Of a DNA stretch of 20,661 nucleotides, positions 2,166 to 18,593 are shown piece after piece. Position 1 is the first letter of the stretch, and each line of letters begins with the position of its first letter. Both the position numbers and the translations under genes were made by a program. The notes beneath the pieces were generated by a model that saw only the letters and a list, made by a program, of their open reading frames with translations, was not told the origin of the DNA and did no database searches. Source of the stretch: a virus; IMG/VR virus record IMGVR_UViG_3300032220_000603, positions 1 to 20,661 of that record; one strand, 5' to 3'.

Positions 2166-5100
2166 ATGCCACTGAATAAGCTAGAAAATTTTATTAGGAA
2201 TACTGAAGGTCGCATTCTTTATGTAAATCCTAATGACCTTGATGCTACTGATAGTATTGATAATCAGGGTAATTCTTTAACCAAACCTTTCAAAACGATT
2301 CAAAGAGCACTTCTTGAGTCTGCAAGGTTCTCATATTTGCGTGGAGATAATAACGATTTAGTTGAAAAAACCACAATTCTTCTGTTTCCTGGTGAGCACT
2401 TAGTTGATAACAGACCTGGTTTTGCAGTTAAAGATGTTGGTGGTGTTGCGACTGCTGTTTCTCCTTCTGGTTCTGAGTCAGTTGCTGGTGAAGAACTTAC
2501 ATTAACTTTAAGTTCGAACTTTGATCTTACTCAAACGAACAACATTCTACATAAGTTCAATAGTGTTTATGGTGGTGTTGTTGTTCCCCGTGGTACTTCA
2601 ATCGTTGGTCTTGACTTAAGAAAGACCAAGATTCGTCCTAAGTATGTTCCAAACCCAACTGATACTAATGCTCCAAATTCTGCGATTTTCAGAGTTACTG
2701 GTGCTTGCTATTTCTGGCAGTTTTCGATCTTTGATGGTAGTGAGAGTGGTCTAGTTTATACTGACCCAGTTGATTTCTCATCAAATAATCGGTCGATTCC
2801 AACATTCTCTCACCATAAACTCACTTGCTTTGAGTATGCTGACGGTGTAAACCTTCCAACAGGTTACACTATCACTGACCTTGATATGTATTATAGCAAA
2901 CTATCAAATGCCTTTAACCTGGCATCTGGTAGAGATATTGATCAGAAGTATCCAGCAAATCCATTAGGTTTCTCGAAACAGCGTCCAGAATGGGAAATCG
3001 TTGGTGCATTTGCTTCTGACCCTGTAAACATTTCAAATATTATTTCTGGTGATGGTTCAACTCCAGGATCAATTGTAACGGTCACAACTTCGACTGCTCA
3101 CGGTCTGACTGAGGGAACTCCCGTCAAGATTCGTGGAATTAACGTTGATGATTATAATATTTCAACAAAGGTTCAAACTGTTCCATCGTCAACAACATTC
3201 ACTTACATTCTTCCATTTGTAAGAGATAACTTACCAGCTGGTGCATCTGCAGGTCTGAGTGGTTCATCTGGAACCGTAACCATCGAGACTGATACAGTTT
3301 CTGGTGCGTCTCCTTATATCTTCAACATCTCCCTGCGTTCTGTGTGGGGTATGAACGGAATGCACGCTGATGGTTTTAAGGCATCAGGTTTCCGTTCGAT
3401 GGTTGTTGCACAGTTTACCGCTGTGTCTCTGCAGAAAGATGACCGTGCATTCGTTAAGTATAATAAGCAAAATAGAGTTTATGATGCAATTGGAATCAGT
3501 AAAGTCACTGGTTCTGCTCTGTCTTCTGGTTCTTCTTCAACAAACCTTGCGACAGTTTATCACCTTGACTCTGGAGCAATTTATCGTCACGGCTGGCAAC
3601 CAGTTCACATTAAGGTAACGAACGACTCATTTATTCAGATCGTTTCTGTGTTTGCGATTGGTTTCAACAAACACTTTGCGATGGAGTCTGGTGGTGATGG
3701 TTCGATCACAAACTCCAACTCCAACTTTGGTCAGTTCTCACTTTCATCTGACGGATTTAAAAAGGAAGCCTTTGATAAGGACAATAAAGCTTTCATCACA
3801 TCCATCATTACACCAAAAGCAGTCACAACTGAAGAAATTAATATTGACTGGATTTCTTTTGACGTTGCAAAGACTCAACAAGTTGGCGTATCAAGTCACC
3901 TATATCTCTTTGGATTTAATAACCCAGATGATGATCCCCCAGTTATCACACAGGGATATCGAATCGGTGCAAAGGTTAATGACTCACTCTCTGTTGTAAC
4001 TCCTTCAGGAACAAAGACTGCAAGCATTTACATGCTTGATAATATAATTGGAACTGGAACAACGATTGCATTAGGAACGCAGTCCTCTGAAAAGTTGTAT
4101 AAGGCAACTTCATCTGGTTCAAACATCCTAACCTTAGGAACACATAATATTCAAACTGGTGAAAAGATTCGTATCATCAGTGATGCTGGAGACCTACCAG
4201 AAAACCTAACTGAAAACGTAATTTACTATGCAATTCGTCACTCGGCAACAGAAATTAAAGTTGCTGGTTCAAAGACAAATGCTGAAGCAGCAACTCCTAT
4301 CCCCATTACCATCTATGGTGGAACTCAACTGAAAGTAGTCAGTCGAGTTTCTGATAAGGCAGCTGGAGAAATTGGTTCTCCAATTCAATATGACTCTGTA
4401 AACTCAGCATGGTATGTTCATGCTAATGCGAATAACGACATTTACTCAACGATTAATTCTCTAGGTGTAGCAGGACTCACCGCAAGAACTAGCGTTGCTT
4501 TCATTGAGCGTCGTGATGATCCAAGAAGTTTGGATGAGAAACTTTATAAGGTTCGTGTCGTTGTTCCAAGAGAACTCTTTAATGGTAGAGATCCAAATGA
4601 AGGATTTGTTATTCAAGAATCAAGCACTACAGGTGCTAGAAGTAATGCAGACTTCTCTCTAGGATCTATAACTTCATCTGATTATCTTTTCAATAGAAAC
4701 CCAAGATTCATCAGTACTTGTACTTATGATTCTATCAACAACCTCGTTACTGTAACTGCTGATCTACCACACAACCTAAAAGTCGGTGATCAAGTTATTC
4801 TGAAAAATGTTACTAGCACAACAAATACTGCTGGGACACTTAATCTTGGATACAACGGTACTTTTGTAGTTACAGAGGTTACCAACGATAAAGTATTCAA
4901 GTATGGAACAACTGATACTCTTGGAACTGTTCATAACCCAGGAACGTTCACAAATAATACAAACACTAGAAGTGTTTCACTTCCTCGTTTTGAAAGAAAT
5001 GACCTAAAAGGAAACTTCTTTGTTTATCGAAGAGAAGTTATTTCTCAATACATTTATAATGTTCAAGATGGTGTTTATCATGTTTATCTACTAAACGCAT

Positions 5101-7784
5101 CCAACACAGTTCCAACAGAGTTTACAAACCTCAAGTATTCTCAGAATGTTGTTGATCTTTATCCTCAGTTAGATAAAGATAACGTCCATGATAACCCACC
5201 AGCATCGATTTCATTTGCAAAGAGAGATCCTCTTGGTGATGTTGTAACAAACGATCTTAAGAATAGTATTACTAGAGAAAGTATTGATAAGTTATTCCAC
5301 TACTTTGGTCTAAGTCCTATTGTTTCGAGTATTGAAACTTCTGTTTCAGGTATTACTACAGTTACCTTTAATAAAGAACACCAACTGAATGGAGTTGTTA
5401 CTTATAACACTCTGAATGGTGGAAGTGGACACTCTAACGGAACTTACTATAACGTAAAACTTTACAATGAGAATACTCTCACTAACTGGGACGGTGCGAC
5501 TGCAAAGGTCGTTGTTTCTGGTGTAGGAAACTCTGTAACTTCTGCTGAGATTATCTCTGGTGGTTCTGGATATACAAATGGAGAAACTCTTTGGTTTGAT
5601 AGTGGTGCTATTGGAGGTTCTCCAAGTGCAAGAATTACAATTGCAACCTCTGGTATTTCAACCTCTGTAGGAAACTCAGTTCAGTTTACTGGACTTGGAA
5701 CAGTTACTGACGGATACTATCGAATTATTGATATTCCTGCAAAGAACAAGATTGCTATTGGTCAAACCGTTGGAGACCCAACAATTGTTCCTGGACAATA
5801 TTTTATTAATATCAGTCCTGCGGTATCAGTTAACTCTGCTCCAACTTATGATTCAGCAACAGGTATTGCAACATTCACCTGTGCAAGTTCGCATGGTCTT
5901 GTAGCTGGTAATAAGTTCAGAGTTCTCGATGCATCACACAACAACTTAGGAGACTTTGTTGTTAATGAAATTGCTTCACCAACAGTCTTCACATCGGAGA
6001 CGGACAAGACAATTCCAGCATCAACAAAGATTTTAAAACATGCATTGTCTGGAAATGATGCAACTTCAGACTCTCTTGGTGAGAACCTTGGTACAAGAGG
6101 AGTTTCACTCTATCAGAATGAAATTCTGACTCTTGGACAAACTATCACGAACGAAACTCAGTTTATCGTTTCTGTACCAAACTCTGGTATCGGTACTGTC
6201 GCTCGTTTCCCACTTGGTTCTTATATCCAAGTTGATAATGAAATCATGAGAATTACCAGCAGCACGCTGGCTGGATCTGGTAATAATGAAATTCAGGTCA
6301 TTCGTGGTTCGATGGGTACTCTCAAAGAGAACCATACCTCAGGTGTGATGATCCGCAAGATCAAACCACTTCCTATTGAACTTCGTAGACCATCGATCAT
6401 TCGTGCATCGGGTCATACCTTTGAATACATGGGATTTGGACCTGGTAACTATTCGACAGGTCTACCACAACTTCAGAACAGAACTTTAACTGAAAGAGAA
6501 GACTTCCTTTCACAGTCTCAAGAAAGTTCTTGTGGTAATGTTGTCTATACTGGTATGAACAGTGATGGAGACTTCTTCATTGGTAATACCAAGTATTCTG
6601 CTTCTTCTGGTGAACAAACTACCTATGATATTCCTGTTCCAACTATTACAGGTCAAGATCCTTCAAGACTCTCAGTTGTCTTTGATGAAGTTATTGTAAA
6701 AGAAAGAATTATTGTAGAGGGTGGTAACTCTCAGCAAGTTCTATCACAGTTTGATGGTCCAGTGACCTTCAACAAAGAACTAAAGATGAATGATACCGTT
6801 GCTATCAACGGTGCTCTTAAAGTTAACAATACTCAAGAGATTACAAATACAACACAGTCAACCAACAAAGACACTGGTGCTCTGATTGTCGAAGGTGGTG
6901 TTGGTATTGAGAAGAACCTCAATATCGGTGGTGATATGACCATCGGTGGAACCACACAGTCAACAACAAAAGATACTGGTGCTCTGGTTCTTGAGGGTGG
7001 TCTTGGTGTCGAGAAGAACCTAAACATTGGTGGTGTTCAAACGATTGCTGGAACCACAGAGTCAACCAACAAAGACACTGGTGCTCTGATTGTCGAAGGT
7101 GGTGTTGGTATTGAGAAGAACCTCAATATCGGTGGAAACCTAAATGTTGGCGGCACGGCGACTATTACAGGCAATATCACCGCAAATGCAAATATTAGAT
7201 TTGGTGATAATGACCATCTATATCTTGGTGATGGTGATGACCTTGATCTCTATCATGATGGTTCAAACAGTTATGTTGATGATAAGGGATCTGGTTCCCT
7301 GTTCTTACGTGGTAATGGTGGAGTCTACATTCAGAAGTATACTGGCGAAAGCATGATTGATGCCGTTGCTGACGGTGCAATCAACCTCTATCATGATAAT
7401 ACTGTAAGAATCAATACTCGTTCTGACGGTGCAAGAGTTACTGGTGAGTTCAGTGCAACTGGTGATGTAATCGCATTTGTTTCTGACGAAAGACTCAAGA
7501 CAAACATTCAACCTCTTGAGAATGCACTCGATAAAGTTCTTCAGTTAAGTGGTTTTACTTATACGTTCAATGAAACCGCTGGTTTACTTGGTTTCAATAC
7601 TGAAGAAACTCACGTTGGTGTTTCTGCACAACAAGTTCAGGCAGTTCTTCCTGAGGCAGTAAAACCAGCACCTGTAAGCGGAGACTACATCACAGTTCAA
7701 TATGAGAAGATCGTTCCTCTGCTTATTGAAGCTATCAAGGAACTCTCTGCTAAGGTAGATGCTCTGGAAAAGAAAATAGGTTGA
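2166..7784 (+). CDS. giant tail fibre protein with C-terminal S74 chaperone domain
   Basis: This 1872-residue structural protein probably forms a trimeric fibre. The N-terminus (YVNPNDLDATDSIDNQGNS, then KPFKTIQRALLES) matches the beta-helix lead-in seen in cyanophage fibre proteins. A long body rich in S, T, G and N follows, with strand-turn patterns and 'VTTSTAHGL'-like modules that recur (ASSHGL, ADLPHNL). Around residues 1563-1665 there are three 34-residue repeats built on NKDTGALIVEGGVGIEKNLN. Next come collar-like sequences (ANIRFGDNDHLYLGDGDDLD). The last 100 residues are a peptidase S74 intramolecular chaperone: SDERLK at 1773-1778 supplies the Ser and Lys of the self-cleavage site, and a coiled-coil end (LIEAIKELSAKVDALEKKIG) follows. 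The S74 part is expected to trimerise the fibre and then cut itself off. Host receptor contact is inferred. The gene ends inside the next promoter/terminator. Confidence 0.92.
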   Translation: MPLNKLENFIRNTEGRILYVNPNDLDATDSIDNQGNSLTKPFKTIQRALLESARFSYLRGDNNDLVEKTTILLFPGEHLVDNRPGFAVKDVGGVATAVSPSGSESVAGEELTLTLSSNFDLTQTNNILHKFNSVYGGVVVPRGTSIVGLDLRKTKIRPKYVPNPTDTNAPNSAIFRVTGACYFWQFSIFDGSESGLVYTDPVDFSSNNRSIPTFSHHKLTCFEYADGVNLPTGYTITDLDMYYSKLSNAFNLASGRDIDQKYPANPLGFSKQRPEWEIVGAFASDPVNISNIISGDGSTPGSIVTVTTSTAHGLTEGTPVKIRGINVDDYNISTKVQTVPSSTTFTYILPFVRDNLPAGASAGLSGSSGTVTIETDTVSGASPYIFNISLRSVWGMNGMHADGFKASGFRSMVVAQFTAVSLQKDDRAFVKYNKQNRVYDAIGISKVTGSALSSGSSSTNLATVYHLDSGAIYRHGWQPVHIKVTNDSFIQIVSVFAIGFNKHFAMESGGDGSITNSNSNFGQFSLSSDGFKKEAFDKDNKAFITSIITPKAVTTEEINIDWISFDVAKTQQVGVSSHLYLFGFNNPDDDPPVITQGYRIGAKVNDSLSVVTPSGTKTASIYMLDNIIGTGTTIALGTQSSEKLYKATSSGSNILTLGTHNIQTGEKIRIISDAGDLPENLTENVIYYAIRHSATEIKVAGSKTNAEAATPIPITIYGGTQLKVVSRVSDKAAGEIGSPIQYDSVNSAWYVHANANNDIYSTINSLGVAGLTARTSVAFIERRDDPRSLDEKLYKVRVVVPRELFNGRDPNEGFVIQESSTTGARSNADFSLGSITSSDYLFNRNPRFISTCTYDSINNLVTVTADLPHNLKVGDQVILKNVTSTTNTAGTLNLGYNGTFVVTEVTNDKVFKYGTTDTLGTVHNPGTFTNNTNTRSVSLPRFERNDLKGNFFVYRREVISQYIYNVQDGVYHVYLLNASNTVPTEFTNLKYSQNVVDLYPQLDKDNVHDNPPASISFAKRDPLGDVVTNDLKNSITRESIDKLFHYFGLSPIVSSIETSVSGITTVTFNKEHQLNGVVTYNTLNGGSGHSNGTYYNVKLYNENTLTNWDGATAKVVVSGVGNSVTSAEIISGGSGYTNGETLWFDSGAIGGSPSARITIATSGISTSVGNSVQFTGLGTVTDGYYRIIDIPAKNKIAIGQTVGDPTIVPGQYFINISPAVSVNSAPTYDSATGIATFTCASSHGLVAGNKFRVLDASHNNLGDFVVNEIASPTVFTSETDKTIPASTKILKHALSGNDATSDSLGENLGTRGVSLYQNEILTLGQTITNETQFIVSVPNSGIGTVARFPLGSYIQVDNEIMRITSSTLAGSGNNEIQVIRGSMGTLKENHTSGVMIRKIKPLPIELRRPSIIRASGHTFEYMGFGPGNYSTGLPQLQNRTLTEREDFLSQSQESSCGNVVYTGMNSDGDFFIGNTKYSASSGEQTTYDIPVPTITGQDPSRLSVVFDEVIVKERIIVEGGNSQQVLSQFDGPVTFNKELKMNDTVAINGALKVNNTQEITNTTQSTNKDTGALIVEGGVGIEKNLNIGGDMTIGGTTQSTTKDTGALVLEGGLGVEKNLNIGGVQTIAGTTESTNKDTGALIVEGGVGIEKNLNIGGNLNVGGTATITGNITANANIRFGDNDHLYLGDGDDLDLYHDGSNSYVDDKGSGSLFLRGNGGVYIQKYTGESMIDAVADGAINLYHDNTVRINTRSDGARVTGEFSATGDVIAFVSDERLKTNIQPLENALDKVLQLSGFTYTFNETAGLLGFNTEETHVGVSAQQVQAVLPEAVKPAPVSGDYITVQYEKIVPLLIEAIKELSAKVDALEKKIG
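6851..7156 (+). repeat. three tandem 102-bp (34-residue) repeats in the fibre gene
   Basis: Three in-frame units of 102 bases share CAGTCAACC/AACAAAGA...CTGGTGCTCTG. Units 1 and 3 are identical over at least 70 bases while unit 2 differs at many third positions. Each encodes one NKDTGALIVEGGVGIEKNLNIGG-type fibre segment. The identity of the outer copies points to recent conversion or duplication. Confidence 0.85.
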
Positions 7785-7809
7785 CAAAATACCAGGACTA
7801 GTTTATAGT
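7781..7809 (+). promoter_or_regulatory. sigma-70 promoter
   Basis: A perfect TTGACA (7781-7786) lies 17 bases from TATAGT (7804-7809), one base off consensus. The ATG at 7832 is 22 bases beyond. It overlaps the fibre stop codon and a hairpin terminator, so it would restart host-type transcription for the modification cassette. Confidence 0.7.
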
Positions 7810-7831: not shown

Positions 7832-8488
7832 ATGCTAGGCGTATATCCTTTATTTCCAGTTCCAATTGCTAAAGCACAATACCCTCCAGAAAAACATAAA
7901 GAGTTCAAAGATAAAGTTTTGAAGTTCATTAAAGAAAATAAAAACTTAGAGGTTGATGGAATTACATCTCCAGAACTCAAGCATTTCTTTAACTCATCAG
8001 AACTTAAAAAAGGATTCTTCGACTATCTTCCAGACGAAGACTTTAAAAACTTCCTAGAAGACTCTGCATATGGATTTGTGAGAGGTGTGATGGGTTGTGA
8101 CGTTGAAGACATGCTTATAACAGACTGTTGGATTAACACATGCTATAAGAATGGTTTTCAACAATATCATAGTCATTCAAACTCATATGTTTCCGCAACT
8201 TATTATGTGAATTATATTCCATCAATTCATTCGACTCTTTCTTTTCTCAATCCATTCTATAATGTTCACGTCGAACCTTTTATGGAGTTGAATACTCTTG
8301 ATAAAACCGAGTTCAACCAAAAGGATATTATATGTGATTTTATTGAAGAAGGTGATTTGGTTCTGTGGTCATCTCATTTAGATCATGGGTATGATATAAA
8401 TATCGGTAATGGTAGAGTATCAATCTCTATGAATTTTGTTCCATCAAAATTCAAGTCTGGACCATACACATTTTCAATTCAAAAATGA
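7832..8488 (+). CDS. 2OG-Fe(II) oxygenase
   Basis: This 218-residue protein resembles the TIGR02466-type 2-oxoglutarate/Fe(II) oxygenases. The N-terminus (GVYPLFPVPIAKAQYP) has the family's 'lFptPi' opening. The core is NGFQQYHSHSN followed by YVSATYYVNYIP, which gives the metal HxH-type segment (H113/H115) and the strand after it. The distal part (GDLVLWSSHLDHGYDIN) gives H185, followed by NGRVSISMNF, where R195 would bind the 2-oxoglutarate carboxylate. Such enzymes couple 2-oxoglutarate and O2 to hydroxylation; the substrate is unknown. It is the first gene of an overlapping run, behind its own sigma-70 promoter, and its TGA overlaps the next ATG (ATGA). The classic first-site acidic residue is not obvious, so activity is likely rather than certain. 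Confidence 0.85.
   Translation: MLGVYPLFPVPIAKAQYPPEKHKEFKDKVLKFIKENKNLEVDGITSPELKHFFNSSELKKGFFDYLPDEDFKNFLEDSAYGFVRGVMGCDVEDMLITDCWINTCYKNGFQQYHSHSNSYVSATYYVNYIPSIHSTLSFLNPFYNVHVEPFMELNTLDKTEFNQKDIICDFIEEGDLVLWSSHLDHGYDINIGNGRVSISMNFVPSKFKSGPYTFSIQK
8395..8402 (+). promoter_or_regulatory. late promoter motif TATAAATA inside the oxygenase gene
   Basis: An exact TATAAATA occurs 83 bases before the adhesin start at 8485. It could give late transcription of the structural adhesin separately from the oxygenase. It lies in coding sequence, so chance occurrence is possible. Confidence 0.35.
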
Positions 8489-9489
8489 CTTTACAATCTA
8501 GCGGTCAAATTGCATTATCAGACTTAAGAACCGAGTATACAAACTTGGGTTCTGCTGCAAAAGTGGCGATGAACGAGTTTTATTATGGTTCCACTTATCT
8601 GCAGAAAAATAAATGTACTGACCAAGCTAGAAGTGATGCAAGTCATCCCACAAAAGCATCTCACTTTGATAATGTTCCTGTAGCAGGTTCTGGAACTCAA
8701 ATTAAACTTACTAATTTTTATAATAAAGTTTATTATTATGCTAGACAAGCGATAGTTCAGGTAAGTGGTAATAACGCAAATGTTGATGTTCCTACTGTTG
8801 AAGGAGAATCTCTTAAAAAAAATAGTAATAATACAGTATTTTTTGATATTGATGTTACAGGAAATTGTAAGGCAACCACAACAGGAAGTTACGGTCTTAA
8901 CATTCCACAAGGATCAATACCAAATACTACTTGTTTCATGACTAATGACTATGCAATTTATGGAAAAGGTGGAAAGGGTGGAGATGGTGGAGGATCTGGA
9001 TCTCCGGGCGGCACGGCTTTTTCTGTTGCTTCAAACATTTATCTTAAAAATAATAACCGTATTCTTGGTGGTGGAGGCGGTGGAGGCGGTAGTGGTGGCA
9101 AAACACAATCATTTAATGAATGTTATTGCTGTAACGTAAGTAATACTTCTATTGGTGGATCTGGTGGAGGTGGTGGAAAAGGTGGCGGAGCAGGCGGCAG
9201 CGGCAGCGGCGCACCACCATCAAACTTCCCAGCAGGTAGTGGTGGTTCTGGTGGAGACGGTGACGAGGACACAAGCACCGTTCCGGGTTCTGGCGGTGGC
9301 GGCGGAGGACGTTGTGGAGGATATCCTCAAGGAACTATTTGCTCTAATTCCGGATCACCAGGTGGAGGATGGGGCTCTAGTGGTGGAGGTAGTGGAGGTT
9401 CTGGTGGAAATGCAATTCGTCGTAGAAGTAGTGCTTATTATGTGGTATTGACAAGTGGAACACAAGCAGGCAGCACGGTTACATTCTAA
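8485..9489 (+). CDS. glycine-rich tail-fibre adhesin (gp38-like)
   Basis: The protein has 334 residues. The N-terminus (MTLQSSGQIALSDLRTEY, then FYYGSTYLQ) is the 'SSGQI.LSDLR.E' opening common to phage fibre-tip and minor structural proteins. From about residue 160 to 310 it is dominated by poly-glycine tracts with serine (GGGGGGGGSGG, GKGGGAGGSGSG, GGGGGGRCGG) broken by short variable inserts (NECYCCNVSNTS, YPQGTICSN). This is the layout of polyglycine-sandwich adhesins such as T2/S16 gp38, where the inserts form receptor-binding loops. The end (SAYYVVLTSGTQAGSTVTF) is a strand-rich cap. It overlaps the oxygenase by four bases and the next gene by 35, so it appears translationally coupled to candidate modifying enzymes. 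Cysteine clusters and Ser/Pro/Lys residues in the loops could be modification targets; that is inference. Confidence 0.8.
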   Translation: MTLQSSGQIALSDLRTEYTNLGSAAKVAMNEFYYGSTYLQKNKCTDQARSDASHPTKASHFDNVPVAGSGTQIKLTNFYNKVYYYARQAIVQVSGNNANVDVPTVEGESLKKNSNNTVFFDIDVTGNCKATTTGSYGLNIPQGSIPNTTCFMTNDYAIYGKGGKGGDGGGSGSPGGTAFSVASNIYLKNNNRILGGGGGGGGSGGKTQSFNECYCCNVSNTSIGGSGGGGGKGGGAGGSGSGAPPSNFPAGSGGSGGDGDEDTSTVPGSGGGGGGRCGGYPQGTICSNSGSPGGGWGSSGGGSGGSGGNAIRRRSSAYYVVLTSGTQAGSTVTF

Positions 9490-10174
9490 TTTTGGTATTG
9501 GAATTGAAAGAGAAATTTATTCTCAACCGTATTTTTCATATCATTATGGGTATAAAAGTTTATTGCAAATACCAGAACGAAACTCTTGTTCAAAGTTATT
9601 TGAAGTAGAGAAGAAAATAAAAGAAAAATTTGAAACTATAAACTTTCATATTTTATTTTTAAACATTTCTCGAAGAGGAACTTTTGTAAACTTTACTCTG
9701 AAAAATCAAGAAAACTATGATGAGATACAAAAACTAGGAATCATTCCTATCAAAAACCAAAACTCATTTACGTTCAATCTAGATGATATTGGTGGTGATA
9801 TTCCTCATCGAGAAATATTTCCTAAAGCAAACTTAGATGAATTTGATATAGCAGACAAAACTCTAAATGTAACAAAAGAAGTCATATCAAAGTTCAATCC
9901 AATTTTTTATTGTATTGGTTTTGATGGATGTAATGGAAAACTTAACTATGATACTATCCACTTAGAGTTATATCCACAAAATACTACTGATGGTTCAAAG
10001 GGCTTTATAAATATTTTAAAGATTTATGGTATTAATACAGATCCATTTGAAAGATATTTTTTAAACTTCAAAAAGTTTTCCCATGTTAAGTTTAAAATTA
10101 AAAATGGGGAAATTAAAAACATAAAGTATTACAGATCAATCAACGTAAACATTCCAGAATTTTACTATGGATGA
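9455..10174 (+). CDS. protein X1, 239 aa; unknown, paralogue of the protein at 13092
   Basis: The start is taken as GTG 9455, which lies inside the adhesin gene (35-base overlap). No ATG exists near the front, and a later ATT or TTG start is possible. The sequence is mixed alpha/beta with no signal or membrane segment. It resembles the 13092-13832 product: SYHYGY against SYHYCF near the front, IGFDGCNGKLNYDTIHLELYP against YAFDFDENG then NINVELLP, and a shared end (HVKFKIKNGEIKNIKYYRS against HFHFKVKLYKGQ then VKFYRT). Both genes are followed directly by a related methyltransferase gene. The repeating pattern of GFD..G..IELY-like strands faintly recalls ABBA-fold prenyltransferases of the cyanobactin LynF/TruF type, but I regard that as speculation. 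It overlaps the methyltransferase by 8 bases. Confidence 0.75.
   Translation: MEHKQAARLHSNFGIGIEREIYSQPYFSYHYGYKSLLQIPERNSCSKLFEVEKKIKEKFETINFHILFLNISRRGTFVNFTLKNQENYDEIQKLGIIPIKNQNSFTFNLDDIGGDIPHREIFPKANLDEFDIADKTLNVTKEVISKFNPIFYCIGFDGCNGKLNYDTIHLELYPQNTTDGSKGFINILKIYGINTDPFERYFLNFKKFSHVKFKIKNGEIKNIKYYRSINVNIPEFYYG
10006..10013 (+). promoter_or_regulatory. late promoter motif TATAAATA inside X1
   Basis: An exact TATAAATA lies 153 bases before the MT1 start. It may be a late internal promoter, or chance in AT-rich coding sequence. Confidence 0.25.
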
Positions 10175-11324
10175 AACAACCGTATCTTATTATGATTCTC
10201 TTGCTGATGCAATTAACGAAAAGTATCCTCAGGGATATCAAGTTGCGTTAATTAAAAATGAAAAGTATGGATCTCTTGGTCTTAGAGAACAAAACTATCA
10301 GTACTTAGCAGACTTGGGGGAACTTAATCACGATTCCTTCATTGCCGATGTTGGTTGTGGTAATGGACAGTTTCATGCTTTTTTAAAAAATCATCCAAAC
10401 TATAAAAATTGTAGATATCTTGGTGTAGACTGTTGCGAAAAGCAAGTTGATAATGCATCAAAATCTGCAGAAAGTTATGCATCATCTTTTTTCTGCAAAG
10501 ATATGAATGAACTTTTGATGGCTGAACCTTATTTTGATGTGGTTTATTTCATCGAAAGTATTGGATATACAGCTAACCTTGATATTCTTATTAAAACAAT
10601 CTCTACTGGTGTTAAAATTGGTGGAAAAGTAATCATTAAGAACCCAGCAAAAGTGGTTAATGATGAAGAACTAGACTCAAAGTATCAAGAAAAGTTTGCA
10701 AACATACAAAGTGAGTATGGATATAGTGAACAATCTCTTGGTATGCTTCCTGATAGAAACTTCATAGAAGAAACATTTCTTGCAAATGGTTTTGAAGTTG
10801 AAAAGATTGAAGTTCCTAATATTGATGTGATGACTTATAATCAAACCTTCTGCTCAACAGAAGAGTTTTGTGAGGCACATCCTTCATACGTTCAACACAT
10901 CAGTAAGAATGAGACCCAAAACTATGCACCAAACCGTTATCATGAGTGTGTGATTTTTGTATTCAAGAAAGTTGCCGAAGCTATTAGTCATGTTTCGGAA
11001 CTTCCTTATGTGTATAAAACATATAATGAAGGTATCGAGAAGTCTCAGATTGATCCGAATCATCCAAATGCTCCATATATGCAGAGATACTCTGAATATA
11101 GAGAACAATATATTTCAGAGCATCCAGAACAAGCAGACTTTGTTCAAACTCCTTGTGATGATAAAATTACATATGATGGTGTTGGTGTAACATCAACCAC
11201 AGATTCTTCTACTACACTTTCATATTCAACTTCATTCTCAAGTGACTCTGTAGCAGAAGACACTTCAGAATCACGTGTTGTTAATTTAGATGTAAGTTAT
11301 GAAATCGACGACTCCCCAGAATAA
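10167..11324 (+). CDS. class I SAM-dependent methyltransferase MT1 with Ser/Thr-rich tail
   Basis: The protein has 385 residues. The Rossmann core is clear: motif I IADVGCGNGQF (D61 to about 69), the acidic end of strand 2 at GVDCCEKQ (D88), motif IV-like FDVVYFIESIGY (from D124), and VKIGGKVIIKNP as strand 5. Residues 185-194 (GYSEQSLGML) and the IESIGYTANLD segment also occur in the second methyltransferase (13846), so the two are paralogues. Beyond residue 270 there is an extra region with tyrosine- and proline-rich repeats (HPNAPYMQRYSEYREQY) and a Ser/Thr-rich acidic tail from about 335. MT2 has no comparable tail. The methyl acceptor is unknown. Its place after X1 and among hydroxylase genes suggests action on the same substrate. 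It starts 8 bases inside X1 and overlaps the next gene by 26. Confidence 0.88.
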   Translation: MDETTVSYYDSLADAINEKYPQGYQVALIKNEKYGSLGLREQNYQYLADLGELNHDSFIADVGCGNGQFHAFLKNHPNYKNCRYLGVDCCEKQVDNASKSAESYASSFFCKDMNELLMAEPYFDVVYFIESIGYTANLDILIKTISTGVKIGGKVIIKNPAKVVNDEELDSKYQEKFANIQSEYGYSEQSLGMLPDRNFIEETFLANGFEVEKIEVPNIDVMTYNQTFCSTEEFCEAHPSYVQHISKNETQNYAPNRYHECVIFVFKKVAEAISHVSELPYVYKTYNEGIEKSQIDPNHPNAPYMQRYSEYREQYISEHPEQADFVQTPCDDKITYDGVGVTSTTDSSTTLSYSTSFSSDSVAEDTSESRVVNLDVSYEIDDSPE

Positions 11325-11910
11325 ACCATTTTTAGATCTAGAATCTAAGTATGTAAAGAGTTATTTTGATAAAATAACTCAATTGACTCCAGATATTCTC
11401 AAACAAGACTTCACAGAAGTTCCAGAGTACAAAGTCCCTTCAAAATATGAATATGGGGACTGGAGGTTCCGTGTTATTAAGTCGCCAACTGATGGGTTGC
11501 AACTTAAGAACTTTTATAGTGATGCACTTAAAGAGATGGTTCTGGATGAAAATATTCCAACAGTAAGTTTGAATACTTTTGCTGCGAGTTCTGATATTAA
11601 AGAACATGTTGATCCTCCTTATTATGGTAAAAACCTGTGGAGAATCTTGGTTCCTATTACTGCCGACGAAAGTTATATCACAGCAGAAAGTTTTGGAACG
11701 ATCAAAGTTGAAGTTGGTAAACCATTCATTCTTGACTTTGTATATGACTCTCATAGTGGAACAAATAAGTCTAAAGATGTTGACCTCTGCTTCTTGTGCT
11801 TTGATATTTTATATGAGAATGATAGAGAATATCTTGGTTCTCACTTTACAAATGACCCACTTTACTTGAAGGTTCTAAATATTGATATGGGAGCATATGA
11901 GAAATTATGA
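11299..11910 (+). CDS. aspartyl/asparaginyl beta-hydroxylase-like 2OG oxygenase, copy 1
   Basis: The protein has 203 residues. Its double-stranded beta-helix signature is SSDIKEHVDPPYYGKNLWRI, giving H103 and D105 of the iron site and R115 in the following strand. VEVGKPFILDFVYDSHSGTNKS follows with distal H152, then a final strand (DLCFLCFDI). This order (HxD, R-strand, 'G.p.ifD..y.H...N.s') is that of the Asp/Asn hydroxylase family, which hydroxylates protein side chains. The front (YVKSYFDKITQL) resembles that of the next gene (YVEYYDKINEL), so the pair looks like a tandem duplication. The start is the first ATG, 26 bases inside MT1, and the TGA overlaps the next ATG (ATGA). The substrate is unknown; the nearby adhesin and fibres are candidates. 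Confidence 0.8.
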   Translation: MKSTTPQNKPFLDLESKYVKSYFDKITQLTPDILKQDFTEVPEYKVPSKYEYGDWRFRVIKSPTDGLQLKNFYSDALKEMVLDENIPTVSLNTFAASSDIKEHVDPPYYGKNLWRILVPITADESYITAESFGTIKVEVGKPFILDFVYDSHSGTNKSKDVDLCFLCFDILYENDREYLGSHFTNDPLYLKVLNIDMGAYEKL

Positions 11911-12413
11911 CTATTGATTTTTCTAGACCTTATTATGTTGAATACTATGATAAAATTAACGAGTTAAAACAGTTAATTTTGGACGAACATTTCAGTCCAA
12001 AAACTAACATGAAAATCTCTTGGAACATAGATGATGATAGTGGATGTGTCTTATATGCATTCAAGAAAATTCCAAGAGAAGAAGCAACCATTCCAAAAGA
12101 CAAATATTCAACAGAGATAGTAGAAAAGTTTGCGGAGGATGATCGTATTCTTGCATTCTCAAAAATAACTATTCCTCCAGGTCAACACGTCGGCAAGCAT
12201 GTTGATACCTGTTATTGGAACAGAGAGTTTTTCAGAGCACATATTCCTCTGATGAACACTAAAGCAATGTTTTATTATGGTGATGAAGAAATAAACTGGA
12301 AAAAAGGAGAACTTTATTTCTTTGATGTAAGGCACATAGAACATTCTGCAAAGAATGATTCTGATGAAAAGTTTGAATTTATTAGTATTGATATTTGTGT
12401 AGAGGATGCATAA
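11907..12413 (+). CDS. aspartyl/asparaginyl beta-hydroxylase-like 2OG oxygenase, copy 2
   Basis: The protein has 168 residues and is more compact than copy 1. Motifs are IPPGQHVGKHVDT (H98, D100), the strand FFRAHIPL (R110), then INWKKGELYFFD and VRHIEHSAKND with distal H146, and a last strand (FEFISIDIC). The IPPG...H.D, RaHiPL, and W..GE..fFD...H...N series is the classic Asp/Asn beta-hydroxylase arrangement and looks catalytically complete. It overlaps its upstream neighbour by 4 bases and its downstream neighbour by 8 (ATGCATAA), so translation is probably coupled. Divergence from copy 1 outside the core suggests the two act on different residues or proteins. The substrate is not predictable from sequence. 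Confidence 0.85.
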   Translation: MTIDFSRPYYVEYYDKINELKQLILDEHFSPKTNMKISWNIDDDSGCVLYAFKKIPREEATIPKDKYSTEIVEKFAEDDRILAFSKITIPPGQHVGKHVDTCYWNREFFRAHIPLMNTKAMFYYGDEEINWKKGELYFFDVRHIEHSAKNDSDEKFEFISIDICVEDA

Positions 12414-13095
12414 CACATTCACAAATTTATATTCAAGATTCAACAATCAGGAATATAGAAATAAATTTAATAAAGAATATTCAGAAATGTTGTCTGAGAT
12501 TAAAGATGGTAAATTTAATCTTAGCGCAGACCAATATGTAAAAGTATATACAAACTTAGTTAAAAAAGAGATCTGTGAAGAGTTCTCTCAAAAAATTCGT
12601 GATGAAGAGCATAAAAACGAATTTGATAGTCCAATGACTGACTTGTTGAGAACTGGAGAATATGTTAATCTTTTTGCTGTTAAACCAGAGTTCAAAACAT
12701 TTTCAGATAAGGTAATTCGTGATATATCTTCTGAAGTAGGTAGAAGATATGTAAAAGATGTAAGACCATTTTACTATGCTTATGGTGATAGACTTGGTAT
12801 GAGTGATGCTCATGTTTTAGACTATTCAAAAGATGATTTCTTTAGAATTCATCATGATCATTATGCAGAGTCTCTTAACTTCTCTAGACTACTTACAGTT
12901 TGTGTTTATTTGAATGAAGACTATGAAGGTGGATATCTTGAGTTTCCATCTATTGGAAAAACATATGGATTTAAAACTGGAGATGTTATCGTTTTTCCTA
13001 GCAACTGGATGTATTATCATGGAGTAACACCTATTACTTCTGGAAATAGATACACCATCGTATTTTGGTTAGGTATTCACAATAATCAGTTATGA
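12406..13095 (+). CDS. prolyl-4-hydroxylase-type 2OG-Fe(II) oxygenase
   Basis: The protein has 229 residues. A helical N-terminal half (to about 125) is followed by the oxygenase core: FFRIHHDHY supplies the H149-x-D151 metal pair, SRLLTVCVYLNEDYEGGYLEF is the typical P4H strand pair with the GG turn, TGDVIVFPSNWMYYHGV gives distal H205, and TSGNRYTIVFWLG gives the 2-oxoglutarate arginine R215. All facial-triad and co-substrate residues are present, so the enzyme should be active. P4H-type phage oxygenases hydroxylate protein or other substrates that are mostly unidentified. In this cassette it is the third hydroxylase in tandem, overlapping both neighbours (8 and 4 bases). Confidence 0.92.
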   Translation: MHNTFTNLYSRFNNQEYRNKFNKEYSEMLSEIKDGKFNLSADQYVKVYTNLVKKEICEEFSQKIRDEEHKNEFDSPMTDLLRTGEYVNLFAVKPEFKTFSDKVIRDISSEVGRRYVKDVRPFYYAYGDRLGMSDAHVLDYSKDDFFRIHHDHYAESLNFSRLLTVCVYLNEDYEGGYLEFPSIGKTYGFKTGDVIVFPSNWMYYHGVTPITSGNRYTIVFWLGIHNNQL

Positions 13096-13832
13096 CTTAC
13101 TATCTTTTTGAGAGAGACTTGACCTCTGAGCATGTTTCATATCACTATTGCTTTCTAGACTATCAGAAAGTTTCTTTTCATCCTAAGTCTAAGATACAAA
13201 AAGACTATGACCATATCTACAACATTCTAGCAAATGAACTAGATAATGTTCATGGGATGAGAACATTTCATAAAGCAATAACTCCACAAAATAAGTTTAT
13301 TGAAACTCCATATTTTCACCTGTCTGTAAATGGTATTGATGAGCAGGAGTATCAGTTAATTAACAGTGCCTTTGGTCTGAATACAAAACACAGATATAGT
13401 TATTTCACCAAGTCGATGATTGATATTGGGAAAAGAACAGATTTCAAGTGTGGGTTTTTACTTGGAGAGTTTAATAATATTGAACATGAGATGAAACAAG
13501 ATGCTATTGATCTTGCAAAAACTCTTGGTGGTGGAACTTACAATGTTTTGTATGCTTTTGACTTTGATGAGAATGGAAAAGTTATAGACGATAATATAAA
13601 CGTAGAACTTCTTCCTAACTATTCAGATGAAACATTCTTAAACACAAAGAAGATACTTACAGAGTGCTTTCCTCATATCAACAAAACTCTTTTTGATAAG
13701 TATGAGCATATGTTTGATGGTTATTATCCAACTAAGTTCCATTTTCATTTCAAGGTAAAACTCTATAAGGGTCAAAAACCAACCGTCAAGTTTTATCGAA
13801 CTTATAACTCTAAGAATCCATACATTCAATAA
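13092..13832 (+). CDS. protein X2, 246 aa; unknown, paralogue of X1
   Basis: The ATG overlaps the previous stop (ATGA). The product is a soluble-looking alpha/beta protein. It shares with X1 the SYHY opening, the FDFDENGK then NINVELLPNY centre, and the FHFKVKL and VKFYRTYNSKNPYI end. Its front half is clearly different (KSKIQKDYDHIYNILANELD, then KRTDFKCGFLLGEFN). Like X1 it is followed by a methyltransferase gene, here after 13 bases, and that methyltransferase is related to the one after X1. The X-MT unit was therefore probably duplicated as a pair. No catalytic signature is recognisable. A beta-barrel prenyltransferase-like fold is a weak possibility only. Confidence 0.85.
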   Translation: MTYYLFERDLTSEHVSYHYCFLDYQKVSFHPKSKIQKDYDHIYNILANELDNVHGMRTFHKAITPQNKFIETPYFHLSVNGIDEQEYQLINSAFGLNTKHRYSYFTKSMIDIGKRTDFKCGFLLGEFNNIEHEMKQDAIDLAKTLGGGTYNVLYAFDFDENGKVIDDNINVELLPNYSDETFLNTKKILTECFPHINKTLFDKYEHMFDGYYPTKFHFHFKVKLYKGQKPTVKFYRTYNSKNPYIQ

Positions 13833-13835
13833 ATA
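13828..13835 (+). promoter_or_regulatory. late promoter-like AATAAATA
   Basis: An NATAAATA match lies over the stop codon of X2. It is only 10 bases before ATG 13846, which would give a nearly leaderless transcript, so support is modest. Confidence 0.3.
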
Positions 13836-13845
13836 AAAATAAAAA

Positions 13846-14985
13846 ATGGCCAATACTCTTGAATACTATAATTCAATAGCATCTTTACTGAACAACGAAA
13901 ACGATCATTATTACAATGGTGCTCTTTTAGTTGATCTTGACTCAGATCCAAATACTTGGATAGAGCAAGATATTGAGAATATTATTGACTTATCCGATAT
14001 GGGTAGATATGTGTTAGAGTGTGGTTGTGGTGGCGGATATTTCTTTAAAAGACTGATAGAAAAAAGAAAATCAGTCCAGTATTATGGTATTGATGCTTCT
14101 GAAGAGCAAATTAGATGTGCAAAAGAAGCAAACCCAGAATATAAGTCAAGATTTAAAGTAGCAAGTTGGGATAATCTTCCATTCAAAGACAACTATTTTG
14201 ATACTATTTTGTTCTTAGAAACAATTGGATATGCTGAGAATGTTGATCAAATGTTGTCTGAGTGCTATCGAGTATTAAAACCAGGTGGAACTTTATTCAG
14301 TAAGCATCCAGGTTCTACTCTTAATGGTGTGATGTCCGAACTAGATCCTAAAGTTAATTTGGATAAAGTATTTGATGAAACAAGAGAATCTCTTAAAAAA
14401 GCGGATATTGAAAGATACACTCAATACATGATAGATGCTACATCAGTAGATACTTATGATTTAAGTACGGGACACCAAAAATATGTTCCTGAATATTGGA
14501 CAGAATTTAATCCATTTAAATCTCTTTCTCCTATTTCTGAGGACTATGGATATTCTGAAAATAGTTTAGGCATGTTAATGAACGTGCCTGCGTTTATCAG
14601 TAAGATGGAACAATATAATTTCTCAGTCCCAGATGGATACACAATACCACCCACAGATTCGTCACTACATTTGAGAACTTTTTTTATAAATGAAGTTCAA
14701 GACTTGTTTGTTTCTCATAAAGGAAATAATGCAAATATTTCATTAAGATTTAGAGATCAGACAACTGAGAACTTTTGGAAAGTTGTATTTGAAAGACTTG
14801 GGAATAACGCACAGATGTATGATGTTTTAACTCCACTTGGAAGAAAGCATCTAAACTTAATAAACTTCATGTTTTATACTGTTTTTCCCATTAAAGAAGA
14901 TCTGAATGAGGAGTATGTCGATAATGCATCAACAAGGCAAGATGCTGCTTCTCCCTGTATTATCTTTAAGGCAATTAAGAACTAG
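13846..14985 (+). CDS. class I SAM-dependent methyltransferase MT2
   Basis: The protein has 379 residues. SAM-binding motif I is VLECGCGGGYF (about 56-66). YYGIDASEEQI follows with D83 at the end of strand 2, then WDNLPFKDNYFDTILFLETIGY for motifs III-IV, and YRVLKPGGTLFSKHPGS for post-motif strand 5. This is the standard UbiE/Methyltransf_11 layout. It shares with MT1 the front (YYNSIASLL against YYDSLADAI), the ETIGYAENVD segment and the distinctive GYSENSLGML block near residue 240. The region after 250 (FFINEVQDLFVSHKGNNANI) is distinct and probably shapes the substrate pocket. It follows X2 closely and precedes a fibre gene. The acceptor is unknown. Confidence 0.9.
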   Translation: MANTLEYYNSIASLLNNENDHYYNGALLVDLDSDPNTWIEQDIENIIDLSDMGRYVLECGCGGGYFFKRLIEKRKSVQYYGIDASEEQIRCAKEANPEYKSRFKVASWDNLPFKDNYFDTILFLETIGYAENVDQMLSECYRVLKPGGTLFSKHPGSTLNGVMSELDPKVNLDKVFDETRESLKKADIERYTQYMIDATSVDTYDLSTGHQKYVPEYWTEFNPFKSLSPISEDYGYSENSLGMLMNVPAFISKMEQYNFSVPDGYTIPPTDSSLHLRTFFINEVQDLFVSHKGNNANISLRFRDQTTENFWKVVFERLGNNAQMYDVLTPLGRKHLNLINFMFYTVFPIKEDLNEEYVDNASTRQDAASPCIIFKAIKN

Positions 14986-15012: not shown

Positions 15013-17277
15013 ATGGCTAATATTAGAAAAACTTTTAATTTTCGTAATGGTGTTCAGGTAGATGATGATAATTTAATAGTAAACCCGACAGGTTTGGTTG
15101 GTATCGGCACATCGGTCCCAACCGAACTTCTTGATGTAAGAGGAACTGCGAAGATCGTTGGTCTGGTTACTGCGACGGAAGTTTTTGCTGATAATATTAG
15201 AGCGACTGGTGTTTCTACTTTTAGTGGTGGGCTGAGAGTTGGTATTGTTTCAGTAGGACAAAACGGTATTGTTACTGCAACATCCGTATCTGGTGTTGTA
15301 ACTTATTATGGTGATGGTGGAAGACTGCTTAACCTTCCAACATCGCAGTGGTTAGATGTTGATATTGGTCTTGGATTTACCAGTATCTATGCACAAGGTT
15401 TTGTTGGAGTCAATACAACATCACCATTCTATCCTTTCCAAGTTGGTGGAACAGACTCAACAAGACTATTTGAAAGTGTTGGTGCAAGAGGTGTCGGTAT
15501 TGATTCGACAGGAAATATTTACTCAACAGGTATTGTAACTGCAAGAGAATATAGAGGTATTGGTATTGCATTAACAGACTTAAACGCTTCTAATATTGCA
15601 TCTGGAACTTTAGATAATGCTAGATTACCACAGAACATCAGTATTAGTGGTATTTTAACTGCGACAAGTGTTGTAAGTACAAACGTCAACATTAACTCTG
15701 GTGGAGTCAATGTAATTGGTGTTGTTACTGCTACAGGTGGTTTTGTAGGAAATGTAACTGGAAATGTAGTTGGAAATGTAACTGGAACCGCAACAACCGC
15801 AACTTCTCTTTCTGGAACTCCAAATATTGTAGTTGGTATTGTAACTGCAACTGAACTAATTTCAAATATTTCCAGCACAGGAATTTCAACAGTCGTCAAT
15901 AGACTTTATGTTGGAAATAGTATTGGTCTGAATACTGTCTCACCATCTGCAGATGTTCATGTCTACAAGAGTGGAAATGGTGGAATTCTTCTTACCAGCA
16001 CTCAAGAGTCTTATGTTGGTGTTGCAAGAAGTCTAACGAGAGGTCAACAAGGTGGTGAAATTCGTTTTGCTAACCTATCTGGTGCATTTAGTGGTCAAAC
16101 ATCACTCGATCTCGTCAACTATGATAATGGAAGCATAAACCAGTACATCCATCAAGGTGTTGCAGGTATTAACACAGGCAACTTTAACTGGGTTTATGGT
16201 CAGACACAAACTGGAAGAATGACTCTTACCTGGGATGGTAGGTTAGGTATTGGAAAAACAAATCCAGATCATCAGCTTCATGTTGTTGGAACATCAACGA
16301 TTACTGATGACCTTTATGTTGGAGACGACCTTTTCATTAGAGGTGACTCTACCTTAGCAGGAGACATATCTGTTAGTGGTAACTTTACAACAAATAATCT
16401 AACTGTTCTTGGTGGTATTAATGCAAACCTGAATAACACTTCTGGTATTTCTACTTTCTATAATATTAACGTAACAAATATTGGAAGACTCAACAAAGTA
16501 GCAATTGGAACTGATGATTCTGCCTTTAGTGTACAAATCGGAACCAATAGTGACCTAAGTAATGGTACTGGAATCGTCGCTTCTAGTAACTTTGTTGGTT
16601 TAGGAAGCACCGCAATATATCCTCAGATTGAAATTAACGCACTTGGACAGAGAGCTATTTTAAGATCTGTTGGAATTGGTACAACAAGACCAAAAGCTGC
16701 GGTTGACTTTTCGGAAGCAGGTACTGGATATTTCGCTGATGCTTATCGCTTCATGCTTCTTCCTCGTCTAAACACGACGCAAAGAAACAATCTAGACACG
16801 ACTACAGATAATATCAGAGGTGCGGTTGTATTCAATACAACAACGTTAGTTCCAGAATACTATACTGGTTCCTCCTGGGTGCAAATGTCTCAGAGTGGAA
16901 CAATATCTTATGCTGATAGAGCTGGTATTGCAACTTATGCAAATAGTGCTGGGTTCTCAACCGATGCTGCAAATGTAATTGGTGGTATTGTAAGTTGTTC
17001 TCAGTTAAATGTTTATAACTCAGGTATTTCGACGTTTAGTGGTATCACAACAGTCACAGGACCAACATTCTTTGCTAAGCAAATAAATGTTTCTGGTGTT
17101 GTAACTGCAACACAACTTAAAGTTGGAACTGGAATTACTGCAAACTCTTCTGGTATAGTGACCGCAATAAATGGATTCTCAAGCGGTATTGGAACAGCAG
17201 TTCAAATCATAACAGTCGGAAACAGAGTCGTATTTACAGTTCCTGGTGTAGGAACCACAAGTCTAACTCTGTTCTGA
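15013..17277 (+). CDS. tail fibre-like structural protein with GIVTAT repeats
   Basis: The protein has 754 residues and begins MANIRKTFNFRNGVQVDDDN, a typical cyanophage fibre N-terminus. The body is built from many copies of a short strand motif around 'GIVTATE/S' and 'GISTFSG' (for example residues near 51, 84, 175, 215, 235, 275 and 715), each alternating with glycine-rich turns such as GNVTGNVVGNVTGT. Segments like RLGIGKTNPDHQLHV and VGIGTTRPKAAVDF match the 'GIGT..P...L.V' units found in fibres that end in S74 domains, but no S74 domain is present here. GAVVFNTTTLVPEYYTGSSWV is a known phage-fibre knob-like segment. It is a late structural protein, probably trimeric. A strong terminator follows 16 bases after the stop. 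Confidence 0.88.
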   Translation: MANIRKTFNFRNGVQVDDDNLIVNPTGLVGIGTSVPTELLDVRGTAKIVGLVTATEVFADNIRATGVSTFSGGLRVGIVSVGQNGIVTATSVSGVVTYYGDGGRLLNLPTSQWLDVDIGLGFTSIYAQGFVGVNTTSPFYPFQVGGTDSTRLFESVGARGVGIDSTGNIYSTGIVTAREYRGIGIALTDLNASNIASGTLDNARLPQNISISGILTATSVVSTNVNINSGGVNVIGVVTATGGFVGNVTGNVVGNVTGTATTATSLSGTPNIVVGIVTATELISNISSTGISTVVNRLYVGNSIGLNTVSPSADVHVYKSGNGGILLTSTQESYVGVARSLTRGQQGGEIRFANLSGAFSGQTSLDLVNYDNGSINQYIHQGVAGINTGNFNWVYGQTQTGRMTLTWDGRLGIGKTNPDHQLHVVGTSTITDDLYVGDDLFIRGDSTLAGDISVSGNFTTNNLTVLGGINANLNNTSGISTFYNINVTNIGRLNKVAIGTDDSAFSVQIGTNSDLSNGTGIVASSNFVGLGSTAIYPQIEINALGQRAILRSVGIGTTRPKAAVDFSEAGTGYFADAYRFMLLPRLNTTQRNNLDTTTDNIRGAVVFNTTTLVPEYYTGSSWVQMSQSGTISYADRAGIATYANSAGFSTDAANVIGGIVSCSQLNVYNSGISTFSGITTVTGPTFFAKQINVSGVVTATQLKVGTGITANSSGIVTAINGFSSGIGTAVQIITVGNRVVFTVPGVGTTSLTLF

Positions 17278-17348: not shown

Positions 17349-18593
17349 ATGAGACCTGTGATTCAACTCCGACCTCACCAGCAACGTGCTCTGGATGCCC
17401 TGCTGCAGTATCGCAAGGGTCAAGTGATCATCCCCACTGGCGGCGGTAAGACCAACGTTGCTATCTTTGATGCTCTGCGTGAGTTTCAGTCTGATGCTCC
17501 TAAAACCATTGTAGTGTGCTGTCCGAGAATCCTCCTGGCAGAGCAGTTGTCCAGTGAGTTCTTGGAGTTTATAACCAATGCTGAAGTGATGCACGTCCAC
17601 TCTGGTGAGACACATCATTTTAGCACCACTAAAGTGTCTGAAATTCAGGCACATGATGTTAGTTGCGAAATCACAAATCGTCACCAACTGATCTTCACAA
17701 CCTACAACTCTCTGCAGCGTCTTCAGCAGGCAGACCTTAAGGTTGATACCATTTACTTTGATGAGGCACACAACAGCGTTCAGCGTCACTTTTTTCCTGC
17801 TACGGAGCACTTCGCTGCTAATGCTGACCGCTGCTATTTCTTCACTGCTACTCCTAAACATTCTGCTACTATTTCCAAACCTGGGATGAATGACGGCACT
17901 GTTTATGGGCAGGTGATTTGTAATGTTCCTGCTCCTGAACTTGTAGAGGGTGGTTTCATCGTTCCTCCCAAAGTTGTGGTGCAGCAGTTTGAGATGCTCT
18001 CTAAGGGTCAGATTGTTGCTGACGTTGACTGTGAGAATCTGATTCAGACTATTGATGCTCAGGAAATTTCTAAGGTTCTGATCTGCTCTAAGGCAACCAA
18101 ACAGATTGTTTCTCTGGTTTCTCAGACTGACTTCTGCACTCAACTGGAGGAGCGTGGGTTCTCTTGGATGTATATCACTTCTAAGACTGGTGCTGTGATT
18201 GATGGTCAGAAAGTCAATCGTGAGGTGTTCTTTGATACTCTGAGTGCCTGGGGCAAGGATGACTCTAAGAAGTTTGTGGTTCTTCATCACAGCATCCTGA
18301 GCGAAGGCATCAACGTGTCTGGTCTGGAGGCAGTGCTGTTTATGCGGTCGATGGACTACATTGGGATCTCCCAGACCATCGGACGGGTCATTCGTCTGCA
18401 CAAGGACGACGCAGAGGGTCTCAGCAGCGGCAGGATCGCCCCTGGTGCCCTTGTAGACTACACCAAGTCCTTTGGGTTGGTCTGCATCCCTGTCTACTCT
18501 TCTGTGGGCATTTCCACGGCACGTAAGGTGCAAGCGGTGGTCGATACCGTCTTCCAACAGGGTAAACCCGCTATTTCTGTCGTTAAGCGTTGA
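17349..18593 (+). CDS. SF2 DEAH-box helicase
   Basis: The protein has 414 residues. It carries a Q-tip-like front (RPHQQRALDALL), Walker A IPTGGGKT (about 28-35), motif Ia (VVCCPRILLAEQL), Walker B DEAH at 138-141, motif III FFTATP (164-169), motif V LSEGINVSG (around 317-325), and motif VI SQTIGRVIRLH with the arginine fingers (341-351). This is a complete two-domain superfamily 2 helicase of the RAD25/type III restriction-like branch. It should use ATP to unwind or translocate on nucleic acid in recombination, repair or replication restart. T4 UvsW is a functional parallel but is longer, so I do not assign that name. Codon use is noticeably richer in G+C than the preceding cassette. A nuclease-like gene starts at its stop codon, suggesting a helicase-nuclease pair. 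Confidence 0.93.
   Translation: MRPVIQLRPHQQRALDALLQYRKGQVIIPTGGGKTNVAIFDALREFQSDAPKTIVVCCPRILLAEQLSSEFLEFITNAEVMHVHSGETHHFSTTKVSEIQAHDVSCEITNRHQLIFTTYNSLQRLQQADLKVDTIYFDEAHNSVQRHFFPATEHFAANADRCYFFTATPKHSATISKPGMNDGTVYGQVICNVPAPELVEGGFIVPPKVVVQQFEMLSKGQIVADVDCENLIQTIDAQEISKVLICSKATKQIVSLVSQTDFCTQLEERGFSWMYITSKTGAVIDGQKVNREVFFDTLSAWGKDDSKKFVVLHHSILSEGINVSGLEAVLFMRSMDYIGISQTIGRVIRLHKDDAEGLSSGRIAPGALVDYTKSFGLVCIPVYSSVGISTARKVQAVVDTVFQQGKPAISVVKR

Follow-up and report, generated by a model that had tools for sequence, protein, structure and literature searches.

We report that a 20,661-nucleotide stretch of DNA from an uncultured virus (IMG/VR record IMGVR_UViG_3300032220_000603, positions 1 to 20,661; hereafter the window) carries, between two fibre genes, a cassette of nine genes that combines four 2-oxoglutarate (2OG) oxygenases, two paralogous methyltransferases and a glycine-rich putative adhesin with two further paralogous proteins, unkA and unkB, whose predicted fold is that of the ABBA (PT-barrel) aromatic prenyltransferases. 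This predicted fold is the new result. An earlier sequence-only reading of the window had recognised the oxygenases and methyltransferases, and those domain calls are borne out by profile searches, but the prenyltransferase (PT) fold of both unknowns was overlooked, and it alters the chemistry that may be proposed for the set. The explanation that we favour, although belief and doubt are for us evenly balanced, is that the cassette serves the post-translational tailoring of a T4-like cyanophage's adhesin or fibres.

The nine open reading frames, all on the plus strand, occupy positions 7832–14985 and are separated from the fibre genes by 47 bases upstream and 27 bases downstream. The earlier reading had the genes packed with overlaps of 4–35 bases, and this holds at seven of the eight internal junctions (ox1/adhesin, 4 bases; adhesin/unkA, 35; unkA/MTA, 8; MTA/AspH1, 26; AspH1/AspH2, 4; AspH2/P4H, 8; P4H/unkB, 4), the exception being a 13-base gap between unkB and MTB. 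The map also agrees with its placing of the oxygenase set in one operon with the adhesin, with a fibre gene on each side. A sigma-70-like sequence on the plus strand (TTGACA-17-TATAGT, 7781..7809; 11 of 12 consensus matches, the best in the region, and a consensus match only) ends 22 bases upstream of ox1, and is a candidate start of the transcription unit.

Three of the oxygenases are identified both by a Pfam family profile and by the metal-binding motif. ox1 (7832..8488) is of the PF13759/TIGR02466 type with an HxH motif (PF13759, E 1.3e-13), and has relatives in 86 cyanophage records. AspH2 (11907..12413) belongs to the Asp/Asn beta-hydroxylase family (PF05118, E 9.7e-9), while P4H (12406..13095) is of the prolyl-4-hydroxylase type (PF13640, E 2.1e-14), its best sequence match in the PDB being a bacterial prolyl-4-hydroxylase (3itq, E 5.6e-7). 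AspH1 (11299..11910), the most conserved gene of the set, has no Pfam match of its own, and its assignment as an Asp/Asn beta-hydroxylase-like oxygenase rests on paralogy to AspH2 (E 2e-8) and on an invariant HxD...H motif with its Arg, itself also invariant; a divergent homologue in the uncultured lineage L020 matches PF05118 weakly (E 0.0036, below the curated cut-off). MTA (10167..11324) and MTB (13846..14985) are paralogous (E 1e-20) class I S-adenosylmethionine methyltransferases, with matches to PF08241 (E 1.5e-11 and 2.1e-22), a Rossmann methyltransferase profile and a glycine-rich motif I; their profiles match enzymes acting on small molecules and peptides. Profiles, motifs and paralogy thus agree with the earlier count of four oxygenases, two methyltransferases and two related unknowns. 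The C-terminal tail of MTA is variable: in lineage L012 (L012:1787-3100) it contains an extra stretch resembling phage fibre repeats (DITGDINVTGISTVIGVSK), of which a search for a homologous copy elsewhere found none, and in L020 it is completely different.

The label of adhesin for adh (8485..9489) is given on the strength of its glycine-rich composition, a sub-threshold match to the GP38 profile PF05268 (E 0.035, 14.4 bits against a cut-off of 25) and weak matches to PHROG tail-fibre families. Its identification is weak by profile and strong by composition; we do not file it as a GP38 member, but by composition and position it may work like one. It contains an invariant ECYCC loop.

The order ox1-adhesin-unkA-MTA-AspH1-AspH2-P4H-unkB-MTB, with the same two flanking fibre genes, recurs in IMG/VR lineages that are 60–96% identical (L008/L009, L010/L011, L012 and L015), some contigs holding part of the cassette only; at least five diverged lineages of uncultured phages share this arrangement. 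L020 is more divergent: AspH2 and unkB are absent or replaced there, and it has an additional PF13759 oxygenase. Conservation in other lineages and purifying selection on every one of the nine genes (dN/dS 0.03–0.24) show the set to be real and functional. DNA and protein searches of 50,697 cultured phages returned no match to the cassette, unkA, unkB or the adhesin. One relative, L005, has two more 2OG oxygenases (PF13759 and PF13640; L005:6398-7478) directly after fib2, which suggests that oxygenases come and go around the fibres while the cassette itself stays intact.

Predicted fold of unkA and unkB

The products of unkA (9455..10174) and unkB (13092..13832) are paralogous (E 6e-6) and match no Pfam, PHROG or NCBIfam family; profile matches to the HIT family and to type II dehydroquinase were dismissed as chance. 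Using one shared alignment of ten unkA/unkB sequences as input, AlphaFold2 returned models with a predicted local distance difference test (pLDDT) of 72 and a predicted template-modelling score (pTM) of 0.71 for unkA, and of 79 and 0.79 for unkB. Both models are ten-stranded antiparallel barrels ringed by helices, in the (beta-beta-alpha)x5 order of the ABBA fold. In Foldseek searches of the PDB the best match of unkA is AmbP1 (E 2.9e-5, probability 1.00), with NphB (the Streptomyces CL190 enzyme), FamD1 and AmbP3 also found, and that of unkB is CloQ (E 1.3e-4, probability 1.00), with IptA and AmbP1 also found. With VIA-align the best 50 PDB entries are all ABBA enzymes, for unkA and for unkB alike, at Z values of up to 8.7 for unkA and up to 9.6 for unkB (root-mean-square deviation, rmsd, of 4.4 Å over 228 residues), which are middling on the scale of that tool. 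Since every row names the same superfamily, coverage is full-length and the two paralogues agree, we hold with high confidence that unkA and unkB have the predicted ABBA fold, though the models are not fully independent, because their alignment was shared.

Known ABBA enzymes (CloQ, NphB, AmbP1 and the cyanobactin enzymes PatF/PagF/KgpF/LimF) share with unkA and unkB the predicted (beta-beta-alpha)x5 barrel and basic and Tyr residues on what appears to be one face of the last strands. In this superfamily a basic/Tyr cluster binds diphosphate. In unkB, H219, K221, K/R223, K233 and Y235 are invariant or near-invariant and lie with the same parity on the last two strands, and unkA and unkB have these same-face basic and Tyr residues in common; the middle strands have no clear equivalents. 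Catalysis is plausible, and if the predicted fold is right we incline towards unkA and unkB being active prenyltransferases. They differ from the known enzymes in being phage-encoded, in their smaller size (239–246 against ~290–430 amino acids), in having no significant sequence match to them, and in being accompanied by methyltransferases and 2OG oxygenases with an adhesin adjoining. The cyanobactin prenyltransferase profile TIGR04445 gave no match up to E 10. A joint MAFFT alignment lines up GFD..NG..IxLELYP and NI[RK]xYY, and is suggestive only. No bacterial relatives of unkA or unkB were found in genome contigs or in 390 genomes of one cyanobacterial genome's class.

Linkage to the adhesin and a parallel cluster in cultured phages

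In each of the five lineages for which upstream sequence was available (the window, L008/L009, L010, L012 and L020), the adhesin lies immediately 5' of unkA and MTA. Over five lineages the protein distances of adhesin and unkA rise together, nearly one to one (r = 0.95, 10 pairs), whereas the corresponding correlations with the adhesin are 0.63 for MTA, 0.36 for ox1 (six pairs), 0.27 for unkB, -0.01 for P4H and -0.10 for AspH1. A further co-varying block consists of AspH1 and P4H (0.96); unkB varies by itself. Sliding identity between the window and L010 is 0.64–0.70 over the adhesin and unkA and into the 5' end of MTA, against flanks near 0.8, while between L012 and L015 it drops over unkB only. 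These comparisons support joint divergence of adhesin and unkA and their change as a single block. The coupling of the enzyme set to the adhesin, as first proposed from the sequence, is supported by gene order, joint divergence and block-wise change, and among the contigs found the set is not widespread away from an adhesin neighbour.

What the sequence-only reading did not see is a parallel cluster in cultured cyanophages. Compared with viral protein structures, the unkB model matches proteins of S-RIM44 (E 9.5e-4) and ACG-2014e (E 1.4e-3) and, weakly, S-CAM3 (E 0.29). These were linked to phrog_4851 genes by phage name and exact length for the first two; for S-CAM3 the length is inexact. We regard phrog_4851 as a candidate second PT-fold family, which has no significant sequence similarity to unkA or unkB (hhalign included), the likeness being in predicted fold only. 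Its genes close a cluster that runs from a short tail fibre through a 2OG oxygenase, a fibre-assembly protein or chaperone (phrog_4697 where tested), two 2OG oxygenases and a small unknown (phrog_4883 where tested) to phrog_4851, mostly followed by uvsW. The cluster is present in all eight cultured cyanophages examined (S-RIM44, S-CAM3, ACG-2014e, S-PM2, S-CAM1, S-RIM32, Sf-CH11 and Sf-FP1), although the 6 kb downstream of it contain no annotated helicase in S-CAM1 or ACG-2014e. As seen in S-PM2, S-RIM44, S-CAM1, S-CAM3 and ACG-2014e, it shares with the cassette a fibre module mostly beside uvsW, several 2OG oxygenases and a PT-fold candidate. Unlike the cassette, it has a single such candidate, of the other family, which coexists with a separate phrog_4697 chaperone gene, and it lacks methyltransferases and oxygenases of the Asp-hydroxylase types.

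Some annotations in these clusters appear doubtful. The second downstream oxygenase is often labelled 'DNA endonuclease V' (phrog_274), but these genes (L152:2952-3467 and its equivalents in S-PM2, S-CAM1, S-CAM3 and ACG-2014e) resemble 2OG-Fe(II) oxygenases. At the equivalent position, S-RIM44_045, annotated as hypothetical, matches PF13640 (2.8e-7), and one homologue in Sf-FP1 carries a prolyl 4-hydroxylase annotation. Nearby 'ferrochelatase' and 'minor coat protein' annotations look likewise doubtful.

Proposed tailoring of the adhesin or fibres, and alternatives

If the cassette is a tailoring set, the adhesin or neighbouring fibres would be translated together with their own modifying enzymes. 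Side chains, among them those of Pro and Asp/Asn, would be hydroxylated by the 2OG oxygenases and methylated by the methyltransferases, and unkA and unkB would probably add dimethylallyl or geranyl groups taken from the host. The binding surface would thereby become both chemically decorated and host-specific. unkA would act on the adhesin with which it is exchanged, while unkB, exchanged on its own, may act on a second target. We consider hydroxylation and methylation of adhesin or fibres likely and prenylation probable; that the substrate is an adhesin or fibre at all is, in our judgement, somewhat better than an even bet. The pairing and duplication of PT-fold and methyltransferase modules also count in favour of tailoring. 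It is important to note that our gradings of fold, activity and substrate are rough, overlapping personal estimates. Tailoring of this kind had been suggested by the sequence-only reading, and of that suggestion the domain calls and the adhesin coupling stand, while the modification of the fibres is something that we still infer.

A number of points weigh against tailoring. The modification is predicted from the genes, and adh is weak by profile as an adhesin. The co-divergence concerns adjacent genes in five lineages and, since the lineages are few and the pairs non-independent, we treat it as support rather than proof. The PT fold was predicted from an alignment of only 10 sequences, with a template-modelling (TM) score of ~0.4–0.5 and an rmsd of 4.4–4.7 Å against the best matches, and the Lys or Arg usual on the middle strands is not obvious. 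Comparison by hhalign with nine cyanobacterial cyanobactin prenyltransferases was not significant (P 0.075), for which reason we do not file unkA and unkB as members of that family. Finally, Pam3 offers a precedent for a chaperone encoded right after a glycine-rich fibre (PMC9608196).

unkA lies directly 3' of the adhesin, the usual place of fibre chaperones (PMC9608196), and both it and unkB could be catalytically dead PT-fold chaperones or partners of adhesin and fibre, with only the oxygenases and methyltransferases enzymatic. Such a role would fit the want of a significant sequence match to known prenyltransferases and of evident basic residues on the middle strands. Yet the Pam3 chaperone has a different fold, a beta-sandwich plus helices (PMC9608196), a separate phrog_4697 chaperone gene stands beside the PT-fold candidate in the cultured clusters, and the same-face basic and Tyr residues are kept in unkA and unkB. 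We think this explanation unlikely. Another possibility is that the product of the cassette is a small molecule, or that its target is a molecule of the host (for example a peptide, a pigment or a surface glycolipid), with the adhesin a mere neighbour. Enzymes of all three kinds (ABBA, class I methyltransferase and 2OG oxygenase) commonly tailor natural products, and the methyltransferase profiles match small-molecule and peptide enzymes, as such a pathway would have it. However, the cassette contains neither an obvious core biosynthetic gene nor an obvious precursor peptide, adhesin and unkA diverge and are exchanged jointly, P4H is closest to protein prolyl hydroxylases, and the parallel clusters contain a fibre and a fibre chaperone, and we would be surprised if this proved to be the case.

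For cyanophage 2OG oxygenases, roles in DNA repair or in tuning 2-oxoglutarate levels have been proposed (PMC3037559, PMC9146016, PMC9602691), the DNA-repair idea resting on proximity to uvsW (PMC9146016, PMC3037559), and here uvsW does lie 2.4 kb downstream. But the overlapping operon joins the oxygenases to the adhesin rather than to uvsW, fibre genes stand on both sides, and in the cultured phages the oxygenases come after a short tail fibre, on either side of a fibre chaperone, uvsW being merely the next module. Given that in both settings the oxygenases belong to the fibre module, with uvsW next or farther away, the DNA-repair proposal is weakened, and we consider either role for the cassette oxygenases very improbable.

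In cyanobacteria, cyanobactin clusters, which make ribosomally synthesised and post-translationally modified peptides (RiPPs), have a prenyltransferase and a methyltransferase that act on peptides. The cassette has the same pairing in its PT-fold proteins and methyltransferases but shows no sign of a precursor peptide, a protease or a macrocyclase; 2OG oxygenases are its most numerous enzymes, and its candidate substrate is a phage adhesin. With the glycine-rich adhesins S16/PP01 gp38 and Pam3 gp24 it shares a tip protein encoded beside a helper gene, the difference being that motif or fold marks its helpers as enzymes. The literature found does not describe modification of those adhesins, searches on phage prenyltransferases and cyanophage fibre hydroxylation returned nothing relevant, and neither a phage-encoded ABBA prenyltransferase nor an adhesin-decorating phage was found in the literature or family libraries searched.

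We tentatively propose, while leaning somewhat against so broad a statement, that phages hydroxylate, methylate and prenylate their own receptor-binding proteins with dedicated enzymes that travel with the adhesin, a practice that would be widespread in cyanophages in at least two forms, this cassette and the phrog_4851 cluster. Were this so, host recognition by phages would be determined by post-translational chemistry as well as by sequence, there would be an enzymatic route to host range and surface chemistry, and many unexplained cyanophage 2OG oxygenases, of which S-SCSM1 carries 24 (PMC9602691), could be assigned a role open to test. With the parallel cluster present in S-PM2, S-CAM1 and S-RIM44, the tailoring idea can be tested in culturable phages.

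Genomic surroundings of the cassette

Upstream of the cassette, fib1 (2166..7784, plus strand) encodes a fibre of 1872 amino acids with an S74 intramolecular chaperone at its end; at 6849-7135 it contains near-identical direct repeats of ~102 bases (self-matches), which encode TNKDTGALIVEGGVGIEKNLNIGG-type repeats. Downstream, fib2 (15013..17277, plus strand) encodes a 754-amino-acid tail protein (phrog_3269), and a UvsW-like helicase gene (17349..18593, plus strand) marks the end of the fibre module. This helicase shares 67% identity with its counterpart in Synechococcus phage S-SCSM1 and is matched by 423 records, nearly all of them from Synechococcus or Prochlorococcus phages, from which we place the 20.7-kb contig in a T4-like cyanophage. 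psbA was not found in a 146-kb relative, which may be incomplete. Between the tRNA genes and the fibre genes, a free-standing gene at 1076-1801 has weak HNH-endonuclease matches and is possibly a homing endonuclease. A Phd/YefM-like antitoxin gene with no evident toxin (346-721) adjoins the tRNA-Ile(TAT) and tRNA-Met genes, and in S-SKS1, too, a Phd-like antitoxin adjoins a tRNA upstream of the fibre.

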